This document shows, in pieces, positions 411-5,917 of a stretch of DNA of 64,000 nt. Each line of letters starts with the position of its first letter. Within the stretch, counting starts at the first letter, position 1. The notes beneath the pieces were generated by a model that worked only from the letters and a program-made list of their open reading frames with translations, was not told the origin of the DNA and did not search any database. Location of the stretch: NCBI GenBank assembly GCA_023382535.1, contig JAHDWA010000001.1, positions 372,001-436,000 on the forward strand, in the 5' to 3' direction. Source of the stretch: Anaerolineae bacterium. GTDB lineage: Bacteria > Chloroflexota > Anaerolineae > 4572-78 > J111. The position numbers and the translations under genes were made by a program.

Positions 411-1139
411 CTACTTGCGGGCGTACACCTCCGCAGCCAATACATGGGGGTTTTTCGTCCGTGCGTTACGGAGAGTACGCAGTAGCCGTACTTCACCGAA
501 GCCAACGGCTCGAAACTCAGCCAGGAAAGCGCCGCCTTCCTTAGCGCCGGCAATTCAGGCAAACCAATTGGTTTCATCGGCCTGGGTCTCCAGGGGGAGT
601 GGTTCGCGCAGAATAAGCTCCGCCGCATAGACCACCCCACCCGGCCGCACCACTCGGGCCAGTTCCCGGAAGATGTGGCCTCGCGCCGGGTTCAGGTTAA
701 AGATACCATTGACCAGAGCCACCTCAATCGAGGCGTGGTCAAGGCAGAGGTTTGCGGCCTCGGCCTGGTGGAATTCCACGTTATTAATACCCGCTTCTGT
801 AGCTGCTTGCCTGGCACGACGTAGCATAGCCTCACTGAAATCTACCCCGATAACCTTCCCTATTGGACCAACCCGCCGGGCGGCGATCAAGGAGTCGAGG
901 CCAGCCCCACACCCCAGGTCGAGCACCGTCGCGCCCGGCGGAATGTTGGCAAAGACGGCCACGTTAGAGACGCCGGCAAAGGTGTCGACCGCAGCCGCGG
1001 GAATACCGGCCAAAATATCCGGCCAGTACCCCAGGCTTTCGGCAAATTGCCGGCCCAGTGGGAAGGGATGCCTGACGTGCGGGTTTTTCGCTGCCGCCGA
1101 GTAAGCCTGTCGTACCCCCTCACGGATATCTGCATTCAT
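411..1139 (-). CDS. Arsenite-methyltransferase-like SAM methyltransferase with in-frame TGA (candidate selenoprotein or nonsense allele)
   Basis: Class I SAM-dependent methyltransferase. Residues 72-80 hold the SAM motif I (VLDLGCGAG), followed by GVDFSEAM and RPGGVVYAAEL motifs. The frame runs 194 residues to a TGA at 555-557 (context NWFA-TGA-IAGAK), then continues in the same frame for 47 more residues to TAG at 411-413. The downstream part (FLAEFRAVGF, then NARTKNPHVLAAEVYA) is the expected C-terminal end of the family, so the full product would be about 242 aa. In AS3MT/ArsM-type enzymes the corresponding motif is WGEC(L/V)GGA, whose Cys binds As(III); the TGA falls on that Cys. The alternatives are selenocysteine insertion or a TGC/TGT-to-TGA nonsense change. 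I see only a weak possible stem just after the TGA. The substrate is inferred, not shown. Confidence 0.7.
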
Positions 1140-1569: not shown

Positions 1570-2122
1570 GGGTAGCTCACTTAATCCAGTTTAGCATCCG
1601 CTCATTGACGCCCCGATATTGCAAACCAAGCAGGGCTTGCATCTCCGGGGAAAAGAGGGGGCGCTGGCTACTGCCGTCGGCATTCATCACCCAAATTTCC
1701 CAACGCCCACCGCGGTCGGTGACAAAGGCGATCTGGGAACCATCGGAGGACCAGGCCGGGGCGGCGCTGTTGTATTGGGGGTCGGCCAGGAGGGGAGGCT
1801 TCGTCAGTCGCTGGCGCGTGCCGGTGACTAAGTCCAGAGTGTAGACTTCCCAATGGTCGTGCTGTTTGTAGGTCACGGTCAGCTTTTTGCCATCGAGGGA
1901 GAACACCGGGCCGGTATCGCGCAGATCGGTCGTGATCGGCCAGAGCTGGCCACTGGTCACATCGAGTTGCACCAATCCCTTGTCGCCATCGTAGATGACG
2001 CGCCAGGAGTTCTGCGGATCCCAGGCCGGGTTGTAAGTGTACGTATCAGAGGGGATATCTTCAAATTGGCCCGTAGCCACGTTGATGCGGCGCAGCCGCC
2101 ATTGCAAATCCTCACGAGGAGT

Positions 2123-2382
2123 CAACTACTCCCGGCTCGAAGCCGGGAGCTTGTAAGGCGGTGATGTGCAGGTCGCTTTACAAGGCAGTTTAGCTGCAGT
2201 GTTGACACGCTTTCCACCAACAAGCAGTTCCGTCGCCGGCGTTGGTGGAATATCAGAAATTGACTAGGTCAGAGATTGTGTTCTCCCAGCAGGTCTCTGA
2301 CCAGTAAGGCGGTCAGTTTTTGAGACAAAGCTCGGGAGTCCTCTCTGGACAACGGCGACCAGGATCAGAGAGAACCCATTTT
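2123..2382 (+). ncRNA. Candidate omega-RNA scaffold for IscB
   Basis: About 260 non-coding bases precede iscB inside the element, the place and size range known for IscB omega-RNAs. Three strong hairpins are visible: 2129-2137/2141-2149 (CTCCCGGCT with its complement), 2212-2221/2241-2250 (TTCCACCAAC with GTTGGTGGAA, 10 bp) and 2267-2275/2294-2302 (GGTCAGAGA with TCTCTGACC, 9 bp). In IscB systems the guide is the flank just outside this end, which here would be AATCCTCACGAGGAGT (2107-2122) from the host gene. The RNA and its ends are inferred from position and folding potential. Confidence 0.65.
2129..2149 (+). repeat. Left-end subterminal hairpin of the IS element
   Basis: CTCCCGGCT (2129-2137), loop CGA, AGCCGGGAG (2141-2149): nine paired bases starting six bases inside the left boundary. 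Such imperfect palindromes are the recognition structures of Y1 TnpA transposases. Confidence 0.75.
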
Positions 2383-3939
2383 ATGGAGGTAGGTTTGTTA
2401 CCTAAATCAAAGCCACAAAACCATCATACGGTCGGTGTTCTGGCTCCCGACGGGACCCGGCTCAATCCGACCACGCCGGGGAAAGCCCGGAGGTTGAAAG
2501 AACAGGGCAAGGCCAAAGTCGAACGGCGTTATCCGGTCCACACCATCCGTCTGACCTACTGGCCCAAACCGAAGGACCAATTGGAAGTACAGCCGATGGC
2601 CCTGCACCTGGATGACGGCGAGACGATGGGCGCGGCGGTGGTGCAGCATAACAGCAGCCACGAGCGGATGGTCTGCGGGGCGACCAGCCAGACCAGTGGG
2701 CGGGAGATGTCCGACCGGTTGGCCGACCGGGGTCGCTTGCGACGCTGTCGCAAACACCTGGATCGCCAGAAGAAAGGCAAGACGGGTCACCTCAAATTGG
2801 AACAGGCAGGGAAACCGTACCCGCCCAGTATCGAGTTGGATGTATTTCAGAAAATACGCCTGGTCAAACAGATATGCCGACTGTTCCCGATCAGCGAGAT
2901 TGTGATCGAGACAGTTAGTGTGGACATCCGCCGCTACCTTGAGCCGGAGGTCCAGGGGCGGGCATACCAGCAGCCGCGTACGATTGAAGCGCGGGTGAAA
3001 TGGACCTTGCCGGAGGTGTGCGCCGTATGCGGTCAACCTGCCATCGCCAACCTGATCACCCATCACCGGGTCAAACGCAAGGACGGGGGGGTGCGCAATT
3101 TCACCAACGAAATCCCAGTCTGCGCTCGCTGTCACCGGGAAGGAGGCGATTCGGAGCTGTGCTTGGACGCGAGCGAGTGCCCGGACACGCGGGCTTTTGG
3201 GCGATTGCAGCAGGGCCGGGCGTTGCTGCTCACTCAGTTGGCCTCCCTGGCTCCAGTGCGGGAAGTGCGGGGCTACCAGACGGCCCCAACTCGCCAGGCG
3301 CTGGGGCTATCCAAGACGCACATTTACGACGCCGTTGCCGCCGGATTGAATGGCACAAAGCCGGTAACCCTACCGGCAGTGACCTGGCAGGTGCATAATC
3401 CGACCCGGCGCACCCGCAAGTTTTATGACGAGAACTTCGGGGTAGCCAAATACCGCAAGGCCGCCGAGCGGCAACCAGGGGTAGACCCGGAGCGGATGCG
3501 GGTGGATGATCACGACCACGAGCACAACCGGCGCAATCGCAGCTATCGGCGCCACGTCAGAAGTCGCTATTACCGGAAGTTGCGCCAGCAAGGCCAGTTC
3601 AATGAGCGCCTGCTGGGGCCGTCGGGCAAGGAAATCTACAGTCCTAATACCGCAATCCACCTGCTGCAAAATGGACAGGTCGTTGTGGAGAAACGACGGG
3701 TGTTTGCTCAACCTAACGGTGGGGCAGCCATTCAGGCCACCATCCGGCGTAATAATGTTCTGCGAACAGCCGAGGGCTGGCTGGGCAAGGCCTGGGCTTT
3801 GATGTCCAACGGCTCGGTCAAAGTGCTTTTTACGGAAACGCGAAACCTCAAGCAGCCCTTTACCCAACGAACCCCGGCCAAGCTCCAAATTGTCAGCAGG
3901 AAGTGGTGTTGGCTGCCGGTCAAAGAAGATGGAAACTAA
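2383..3939 (+). CDS. iscB: IscB-type RNA-guided endonuclease (RuvC-HNH), 518 aa
   Basis: Residues 27-50 match the IscB PLMP domain (LNPTTPGKARRLKEQGKAKV). RuvC-I is around 73-88 (ALHLDDGETMGAAVV, Asp77), RuvC-II at 173-177 (IVIET, Glu176), and the HNH module at 213-251 has zinc pairs CAVC and CARC, the H227-H228 pair, Asn242 and His251. RuvC-III is KTHIYDAV with His313 and Asp316. All expected catalytic residues are present, so nuclease activity is plausible. The C-terminal 190 residues after RuvC-III are long and basic (DDHDHEHNRRNRSYRR) and unlike the short target-interaction domain of better-known IscBs. I chose ATG 2383 over the TTG at 2320 because the family's N-terminus starts just before the PLMP motif. 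The gene overlaps tnpA by 11 bases. It would cut DNA complementary to an omega-RNA guide, promoting retention of the element. Confidence 0.9.
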   Translation: MEVGLLPKSKPQNHHTVGVLAPDGTRLNPTTPGKARRLKEQGKAKVERRYPVHTIRLTYWPKPKDQLEVQPMALHLDDGETMGAAVVQHNSSHERMVCGATSQTSGREMSDRLADRGRLRRCRKHLDRQKKGKTGHLKLEQAGKPYPPSIELDVFQKIRLVKQICRLFPISEIVIETVSVDIRRYLEPEVQGRAYQQPRTIEARVKWTLPEVCAVCGQPAIANLITHHRVKRKDGGVRNFTNEIPVCARCHREGGDSELCLDASECPDTRAFGRLQQGRALLLTQLASLAPVREVRGYQTAPTRQALGLSKTHIYDAVAAGLNGTKPVTLPAVTWQVHNPTRRTRKFYDENFGVAKYRKAAERQPGVDPERMRVDDHDHEHNRRNRSYRRHVRSRYYRKLRQQGQFNERLLGPSGKEIYSPNTAIHLLQNGQVVVEKRRVFAQPNGGAAIQATIRRNNVLRTAEGWLGKAWALMSNGSVKVLFTETRNLKQPFTQRTPAKLQIVSRKWCWLPVKEDGN

Positions 3940-4330
3940 AAGTACCAAGGGGGCCCGCTACAATTTGAATTATCACCTGGTCTGGACGCCCAAATACCGC
4001 CGGACAATTCTGACTGACTTGATGGCGAGCCGATTAGTTGAACTATTTAAAGAGATTGCTGAGAAGTGGGGAGTTCAGATTATTGCTCAGGAAGTTATGC
4101 CTGATCACATCCATCTCTTTGTTTCGGCCCCGCCCCGGTACAGCCCGGCGAAATTGGCGCAACTATTCAAAGGGACAACTTCCTATGTGTTGCGTCTGGA
4201 ATTTCCCCAGGTCAGGCAGGCGATTTGGAAAGAAGGCACGCTTTGGTCTCCCGGCTACTATGTAGATACAGCCGGGAACGTCAGCACTGTAACGATTCAG
4301 AGGTATATCGAAGAGTGCCAAAAACTTTAA
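3929..4330 (+). CDS. tnpA: Y1 (HUH) transposase TnpA of the IS200/IS605 family, 133 aa
   Basis: A full-length small transposase: YNLNYHLVWTPKYRR at the N-terminus, HUH motif His60-Ile61-His62 in MPDHIHLFV, and the catalytic tyrosine Tyr126 in TIQRYIEE. These are the hallmarks of Y1 transposases, which excise and insert single-stranded DNA without target duplication. The length is normal for the family. ATG 3929 lies inside the 3' end of iscB, giving an 11-base overlap and probable translational coupling; the upstream TTG at 3890 is less likely. iscB elements that retain an apparently intact tnpA are uncommon; most iscB loci lack a transposase, so this copy may be autonomous. Confidence 0.93.
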   Translation: METKSTKGARYNLNYHLVWTPKYRRTILTDLMASRLVELFKEIAEKWGVQIIAQEVMPDHIHLFVSAPPRYSPAKLAQLFKGTTSYVLRLEFPQVRQAIWKEGTLWSPGYYVDTAGNVSTVTIQRYIEECQKL

Positions 4331-4343
4331 CCGAAGTAGATTT

Positions 4344-4368
4344 CCCGACCGGCTTAAAGCCGGTCGGG
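4344..4368 (+). repeat. Right-end subterminal hairpin of the IS element
   Basis: CCCGACCGGCT (4344-4354), loop TAA, AGCCGGTCGGG (4358-4368): an 11-bp perfect stem 14 bases after the tnpA stop and about 48 bases inside the right boundary. It shares the CCGGCT/AGCCGG core with the left hairpin. Confidence 0.75.
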
Positions 4369-5446
4369 GGCGACCACATCTTTAAGCAAAATGAGGTAAG
4401 CCGCCTCCTCCCCGGTACTATACCGGAGGTTTCCGGCGGCTGGAAAATCTATGAAGCAGATGGTGACACCGTTGGAGCCGGCGTGTACTTTGGTAATTTC
4501 GCCAATCTCGGGCAAGTTCATTCCATCGTCGGAGTCAAATGTCCGGCAGATGTTGCGCGGATCGCGCCGGCCGCCGTATTGAAAAGAGACGATAATCTGT
4601 TGTCCATCGGGCGACCAGGTGGGCGATTTGGGCTGGCGCAAGTCGCCCAAAATGACCCGCTCACTGCCGTCGTCAAGGTTGAGCGTGTAGAGCGCGCCAA
4701 ATTCGGCCCCATCCCAGCGAGTAAAGGCCACCTGTCGCTGGTCGGGTGAGGCGACCGGGTCAATCACCCCGCCGGCCAGGCGGCGCAGGCCGGTACCATC
4801 GCCATTGATGAGGTATAGATCGCCGCCGCTGCTGGTGGTGAAGACAATTTTGCCGGCGGAAGTAGCTTTGGTTGAGACCGGCGACAGTTGACTGTTGACC
4901 GGGGCCTGAGCCACCGGCGCGTCGGCGAGCGAGCCGAGAATACGGATGTAGGTCGGTTAGGCCGAAATCCAGCCGGGACCGCCTTCAGCGGTGACGATTT
5001 GAAGCCAGTTTTTGTTGGAACTGAGGCCGCTGATGTCGAACCCTTCGCCTTTCGTCGCCGCACCGATGACCGGGTAGGTCACGCCCGGCCCCTGCCGCAC
5101 GTTGAGTTTGGCAGCGATAATCTCAGCCCGCAACCCGGACGCAGCGGCCGACGTGGGGCTGGGAAATGGGAGGAGGGGCACCGTGGGTAGAACAGCGACC
5201 GCCGGCAACGGGGCGGTTGGCGTAGGCGAAGGAGCGGGGATGGCCGTAACGGTGGGTGGAAACAGGATTGGCGCAGATGGGGTTTGGGTTGGCCCGGCCA
5301 GTTGCGCCCCCGGGTCAGGGGGTATATTCAAAGAAGCTCGGTTAGGCTCGGAACTGACATTGGCCTGGCAGGCTGAAAGCAGCAGACCAGCCCCCAGAAA
5401 AAGGATAAAAAGGGTTGAGGACAGGCGTGCCAGGGCGCAGATCCGG

Positions 5447-5917
5447 CTATTGGCCCACATGCTGGAAGTCAACGCCTACCTGGATGGAGCGAGCCACCAG
5501 GTTCCCCTGGGGGTCCCGATCACCGATCACGACGACTGGGTCGCCGGCCTGCAGTTCGGCCAGAGTGACGGGGGTCACCTTACGCAGAACAGTGTCCTGG
5601 TTGACCAGAACCCGGATCGGCCCTTCCGACGTGCTCAAGTTGAGAGCATCTCCCTCAATCCCGGTCACTTCACCGGCGCCGCGGACGCGGGCAGGGTTGC
5701 CCTGCTCCCATCCTCCGTCGTGCTGGAATTGGCCCCCTCCTGCTTCAGAGTTGCCGCCGTTATGGTCGAACTGGCCCCCGGCCCGTTCTTGCAAGAAGGC
5801 CTGGCGCGTACTGTTCGCGCGGGCCTCACCGACCGTTATCCCGTAGAAGAAACCACCCGCAGCGGCTATGATCGCCAGGATCAAGGCGCCTACACCCATA
5901 CCTATTTTGCTTTTCAT
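5447..5917 (-). CDS. DUF5666-type envelope protein, 156 aa
   Basis: One N-terminal membrane segment (residues 5-28, GMGVGALILAIIAAAGGFFYGITVG) anchors an extracytoplasmic part. A Gly/His/Gln-rich stretch follows, then a small beta domain (residues 83-150: GAGEVTGIEGDALNLSTSEG, then VNQDTVLRKVTPVTLAELQAGDPVVVIGDR) of the DUF5666 type, an OB-like fold of unknown function. It sits between the MacB permease and the lipoprotein pseudogene, overlapping the latter by 14 bases, so it belongs to the sigma-controlled operon. A second DUF5666 protein (10987-11445) begins the same operon, suggesting the pair flank the exporter for a reason, perhaps sensing or assembly. Confidence 0.75.
   Translation of the reverse strand: MKSKIGMGVGALILAIIAAAGGFFYGITVGEARANSTRQAFLQERAGGQFDHNGGNSEAGGGQFQHDGGWEQGNPARVRGAGEVTGIEGDALNLSTSEGPIRVLVNQDTVLRKVTPVTLAELQAGDPVVVIGDRDPQGNLVARSIQVGVDFQHVGQ

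Follow-up and report, generated by a model that had tools for sequence, protein, structure and literature searches.

A transposase-bearing IscB element in an Anaerolineae WD40/SH3 gene: probable ends, candidate guide and target-adjacent motif

Where does an RNA-guided mobile element begin and end, and how much of its specificity can be read from a single insertion? The question is raised by a 64,000-nucleotide (nt) stretch of an Anaerolineae bacterium (GCA_023382535.1, contig JAHDWA010000001.1, positions 372,001 to 436,000; hereafter the window), in which the original prediction had placed an iscB-tnpA element at 2123-4416. Our analysis indicates that the window very probably carries a complete element of the IS200/IS605 superfamily, of the HEARO/ISC type, with its own Y1 transposase and IscB nuclease, and that this element occupies 2121-4450 (2330 base pairs (bp), plus strand) inside a WD40/SH3 host gene on the minus strand. 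The left end was deduced from three sister iscB elements (L001, L003 and L004), and the right end from homologs of the host gene together with relatives of the right end itself. The boundaries first proposed are therefore displaced, by 2 bases on the left and 34 on the right. The central idea holds: the IscB element carries a transposase, its left and right flanks supply a candidate guide and a candidate target-adjacent motif respectively, and a specificity can thereby be predicted from a single locus. The locus is a new case of a known kind of element.

The iscB gene (2383-3939, plus strand) encodes 518 amino acids, with matches above cut-off to PF14239 (RRXRR, 4e-29) and PF01844 (HNH, 3e-6), and its nearest solved sequence is HfmIscB (9k2z, E 1.2e-14). 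An AlphaFold2 model built from 22 sequences (mean predicted local distance difference test score 72.7) points to the same fold, since IscB (8csz), TbaIscB (9k30) and DtIsrB (8dmb) take the top ranks in Foldseek. In the 22-row alignment, E176, H227, H228, the four HNH cysteines (C213, C216, C247 and C250), H313 and D316 are invariant and the RuvC-I DDG (77-79) is nearly so; the RuvC and HNH catalytic residues ascribed to this gene thus appear, as judged from the alignment, to be conserved. An asparagine near 242, which we take to be the HNH asparagine, is retained in the close IscB clade and not in the distant one. Indeed, the distant clade (P0014-P0023) reads RYDVLGTLC where the close clade has NFTNEIPVC, and so is without the HNH-motif asparagine. 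The tnpA gene (3929-4330, plus strand), which shares 11 nt with iscB, encodes a Y1 HUH transposase of 133 amino acids (PF01797 Y1_Tnp, 1e-40; NF033573, 148.7 bits against a cut-off of 55) in which H60, H62 and Y126 are invariant across 15 aligned TnpAs, bearing out the intact overlapping frame that had been described.

What does the host gene tell us about the ends? Its downstream part, which carries WD40 repeats, lies at 1577-2120 (minus strand; PD40, 5.8e-14, and homologs), and its upstream part, with an SH3 domain, at 4451-5472 (minus strand). That the gene is interrupted is confirmed, but the restoration of its frame by removing 2123-4416, offered as proof of the ends, is weak evidence because any removal of a length equal to 2 modulo 3 restores the frame. 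A search with the protein joined at that junction found 3845 homologs, of which 120 were listed and aligned, and at the protein level these uninserted homologs contradict the junction: it creates 12 residues, DFPAAGNLRYST, that are absent in all 120, whereas removal of 2121-4450 leaves none of them. The corresponding 36 bases therefore belong to the element. In the case of P0148, the closest listed homolog, the fit is 88.9% identity with 24 gap positions in two gaps for the 2123-4416 cut, and 91.9% with 12 gap positions in one gap after removing 2121-4450 or 2120-4449. P0148 reads VTICFI-PREDLQW across the junction, and around the joint the listed homologs have C (120), then F (92) or Y (27) and I (85) or V (21), followed by D-L-Q/H/R/K-W. 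Because ATGAA, which follows 4450, lies in the codons for the conserved F/Y and I/V, it is target DNA. The gap that remains against P0148 reflects a deletion of 12 residues in the window's host gene, close to where the compared part begins, and at 4957-4959 the host frame has a stop where P0148 has Q. With these two further lesions in the frame, and since the stop may precede or follow the insertion, the insertion cannot be called recent, as had been proposed.

The left end begins with GTCAACTAC at 2121. The three sister elements share GTCAACTACCCCC.., for which the window counterpart is GTCAACTACTCCC.., and in them this start lies about 260-310 nt 5′ of iscB, preceded by unrelated flanks; the HEARO consensus likewise starts GUCAacua. 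The shared start and the consensus together pick 2121, and the guide therefore ends at 2120. The predicted guide, CAAATCCTCACGAGGA, is thus host DNA at 2105-2120 (plus strand), directly 5′ of the conserved GTCAACTAC start, and replaces the one earlier placed at 2107-2122. For its length we adopt 16 nt, the optimum for the guide of OgeuIscB (PMC13180657). The left end and candidate omega-RNA scaffold extend over 2121-2382 (plus strand), with a closing stem (2121-2126 with 2201-2206) and a hairpin (2129-2149). When the window leader was compared with those of the three sisters, the closing stem was invariant and the hairpin had three pairs changed on both sides. Slid controls had none, but 19 of 500 shuffles reached that number, and the covariation is read from few (four) sequences. 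The three-hairpin omega-RNA proposed earlier gains support in its 5′ part (first stem and hairpin) and is putative in the rest of the leader. As a TnpB element described below has the same left end, some of the conservation may reflect a role for TnpA instead of one in the RNA.

At the other side, folding and the relatives L014, L072, L073, L003 and L004 define a right end at 4399-4450, consisting of a two-storey hairpin (4399-4441) and the nine bases GGAAAATCT. Its layout is AGCCGCC-TCCT-CCCCGGTA-CTA-TACCGGAGG-TTTCC-GGCGGCT, then GGAAAATCT. This design is common to L014 (an IscB with HEARO RNA), L072 and L073 (TnpA elements) and the sisters L003 and L004. The sequence that follows is ATGAAG in the window and L072, ATGAAA in L014 and ATGAAT in L073. 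We therefore place the predicted target-adjacent motif, ATGA(A), in the right flank ATGAAG (4451-4456, plus strand), which is host DNA as judged from the host homologs. ACTATA (4417-4422), the motif named in the original prediction, is the apex of the terminal hairpin; a flank common to several copies does exist, and it is ATGA. Both ends carry hairpins, as had been stated, with the correction that the one at 4343-4367 is internal and that 4399-4441 forms the right terminus. The internal GC-rich hairpin has counterparts at the same place in L014 (near 5220-5245) and in L072 (after tnpA), and it is possible that it acts as a terminator, a second TnpA site or a part of the RNA.

Is ATGA a regular neighbour of this right end? 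A scan of viral contigs for the right-end pattern gave at least 120 stretches, or 115 distinct ones once 5 duplicates were dropped, to which the window, L014, L072 and L073 do not contribute; ATGA was scored when it started 11-19 nt after GGTTTCC. Among these listed matches, ATGA was present in 19 of the 22 copies with an outer arm of at least 5 bp and in 8 of the other 93, most of these eight appearing to be copies of this end whose arm is poorer; in random 12-mers it occurred in 225 of 6000 (3.75%). With an arm of at least 4 bp the counts were 22/29 versus 5/86, and with at least 6 bp 16/17 versus 11/98. The arm test, in which the arm could be displaced by 0-2 bases upstream and 0-1 downstream, was designed after the matches had been viewed, and an earlier one without the bulge separated poorly (at least 4 pairs, 5/11 with ATGA versus 22/104). 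Upstream of the 27 ATGA copies, within 3.5 kb, iscB was found in 6 and tnpA in 4, some loci ending sooner. In one viral contig (L193) the iscB match (3-1136) extends past the right-end hairpin, which ends at 1121, so that the end lies within coding sequence.

The locus thus has hairpins at its ends, a fixed ATGA on one side and no direct repeat at the 2120/4451 junction, as an IS200/IS605 element should, and, as far as anatomy goes, the unrelated left flanks and the ATGA beside right-end copies of an IscB element. That the element instead spans 2123-4416, with ACTATA as motif and 2107-2122 as guide, is highly improbable: the host frame is restored upon its removal, but this version leaves residues found in none of the listed homologs, fits P0148 less well and cuts the terminal hairpin at its apex, and it is ATGA that follows other copies of the right end.

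Several observations weigh against the identity and ends preferred here. The protein comparison fits 2121-4450 and 2120-4449 equally. A search of 1900-4700 with RF02033 found no match at E 1, and the leader searched alone gave a weak HEARO match at 2121-2206 (12.1 bits, E 2.6); the same model gave 9 matches in 8 of 14 other IscB loci. Right flanks in the sister clade are mixed (ATGT in L004, GGCC in L003, and near ATGT with an uncertain boundary in L047), and in 3 of the 22 paired-arm copies the interval tested contains no ATGA, which in one case (L196) stands just beyond it. The NCBIfam model guided_IscB scores 146.7 bits against a cut-off of 175, in an alignment that spans the whole model, and confidence in the structural model is low in the HNH and C-terminal parts. 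We read the low score as divergence, because domains and fold agree. One might also suppose an element in decay, whose genes look intact while transposition and RNA-guided cutting have been lost, given that RF02033 does not recognise the leader RNA and that the insertion is not the only lesion of the host gene, which also has a stop and a deletion. Nevertheless, both frames are open, the catalytic positions appear to be kept and both ends seem complete, which makes decay unlikely in our view.

Does tnpA belong to the element, or is it a passenger? In the latter case iscB would normally be non-autonomous and moved in trans, and this copy would have gained tnpA by recombination. Consistent with this, the right end directly follows iscB, with no tnpA, in L003 and L004, and L001 has no tnpA in the approximately 550 bases available after its iscB. 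Of the 780 TnpA relatives, moreover, none of the 120 listed could be paired by eye with the contig of an IscB relative among the 26 besides the window's own, a weak comparison because only the longest contig per cluster is shown. However, tnpA lies between the ends and overlaps iscB. In addition, the C-terminal EAPPGPDTI of P0002 is similar to KVPRGPATI, which the window encodes in its third frame across the beginning of tnpA; this likeness, read from protein, suggests that tnpA-like DNA also follows the iscB of P0002. A passenger tnpA is thus the less probable account, though a more plausible one than decay, and we keep to an element that carries its own transposase.

How widespread are such proteins? 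At E 1e-3, 27 IscB relatives were listed including the window's own; of the other 26, 12 are 65-87% identical (two of them named Chloroflexota, BroJett011), 10 are 37-42% identical and 4 fall below 30%. In genome contigs, a single-protein IscB scan yielded 48 candidate stretches and no relative, and an alignment-based scan 9 loci, none of the close clade, so that no close relative could be read as DNA; six of the nine are of the distant clade (Peptococcaceae, Desulforudis, Desulfofundulus and Desulfovirgula records). Among 100 genomes related to the first distant-clade locus, 14 gave a hit at E 1e-20, some of these hits being to other IscB-like proteins. Plasmids gave iscB matches in 50 records, always over less than 80% of the query, and tnpA matches in 2697 records, all below 60% identity. 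In viral contigs, a single-protein TnpA scan returned 8 candidates and no relative, and an alignment-based scan 17 loci. L085, considered as a second iscB-tnpA pair, has an iscB-like match and a tnpA; it was set aside as no matching ends were seen.

A different nuclease is found between the same kind of ends. L072 and L073 belong to IS200/IS605 elements with TnpA and TnpB that share with the window a TnpA 64% identical, the left end GTCAACTACCC, the right-hairpin design and the ATGAA flank, and differ from it in having an opposite-strand TnpB in place of IscB. In L072 the TnpB (minus strand; Cas12f1-like TNB 1.5e-22, OrfB_IS605 2.1e-11) runs toward the left end near 2253, tnpA is on the plus strand, and the right end stands before ATGAAG; on the same viral contig a second left end (L073, near 475) has a different flank. 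From this mirror-image arrangement it seems that one kind of end can be served by either TnpB or IscB. There is about an even chance, we consider, that one TnpA lineage uses one pair of ends (GTCAACTAC.. on the left; the two-storey hairpin, then ATGAA, on the right) as an exchangeable frame for two unrelated, oppositely directed RNA-guided nucleases, TnpB pointing at the left end and IscB away from it. The two nucleases would use identical flanks, each reading the mirror image of the other's motif (TnpB a 5′ TTCAT, IscB a 3′ ATGAA), and would guard the same empty site. If so, the nuclease cargo could be swapped with transposase, ends and target rule unchanged. Finding such ends in a TnpA/TnpB element as well is relevant to the question of how a single transposase can work with both families of nuclease.

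How might the parts act together? Genes, ends, flanks and the ATGA beside independent right-end copies are observed; for strand polarity, transcription, RNA processing, cleavage and retention we infer the following. Excision and insertion as single-stranded DNA, and retention by the nuclease, are known from IS200/IS605 and OMEGA systems. TnpA most likely recognises the terminal hairpins, and would cut beside TTCAT on the strand opposite the genes (ATGAA on the plus strand), excising and reinserting the element as single-stranded DNA. A transcript starting in the left flank would become the omega-RNA, with the guide (flank up to 2120) followed by the scaffold from GUCAAC. Loaded with this RNA, IscB would cut the site left empty by excision, CAAATCCTCACGAGGA/ATGAAG, and repair from a sister copy would restore the element; the occupied site would be spared because the insertion separates the guide match from the motif. 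The predicted uninserted junction is CACGAGGA/ATGAAG. A single locus is enough to state guide, motif and empty site, and other copies of the right end provide a check. In its corrected form (ATGA, guide ending at 2120) the prediction is directly testable, the first version having pointed to a hairpin loop.

Compared with known HEARO/IscB (ISC) elements (RF02033; OgeuIscB, TbaIscB, HfmIscB), the present one has the RRXRR, RuvC and HNH protein, the fold, the 5′ leader starting GUCAAC, the element ends and the right-flank motif in common. It differs in its own overlapping tnpA, in a guided_IscB score below cut-off and in a leader of which RF02033 matches nothing beyond the first stem and hairpin. 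HEARO elements are reportedly flanked by ATGA or GTGA (Weinberg 2009). Few HEARO nucleases lie near TnpA, and 65% of leaders match RF02033, according to PMC9755519; the earlier statement that most iscB loci lack a transposase agrees with this, and transposase-bearing IscB elements are accordingly uncommon. With IsrB the element shares the fold match to DtIsrB (8dmb) and, as predicted, the motif NTGA, unlike IsrB having an HNH domain; in PMC9581776 the DtIsrB motif is NTGA (TTGA at 60 degrees), and that of other IsrBs NTG or NTGG. OrufIscB has the motif NTAAA, as given in PMC13180657, and IscB motifs therefore differ between clades.

Within the window the element appears to be single. Apart from the self-match, blastn of the element region against the window found the palindromic ends of the element and short weak matches (E at least 0.13); the right-end pattern matched once, at the element itself (0.01 expected), and GTCAACTAC with at most one mismatch occurred 7 times (7.13 expected). 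A phage collection gave no match to the element. Elsewhere in the window, a methyltransferase frame at 411-1139 (minus strand) contains a TGA in frame (557-555), after which another 47 codons are open. The best NCBIfam matches to the part before the TGA are arsenite-methyltransferase selenoprotein models (NF041537, 6.6e-49; NF047649; NF041536), all below cut-off, and the match stops just before the TGA, which may be a nonsense mutation or possibly a selenocysteine codon.
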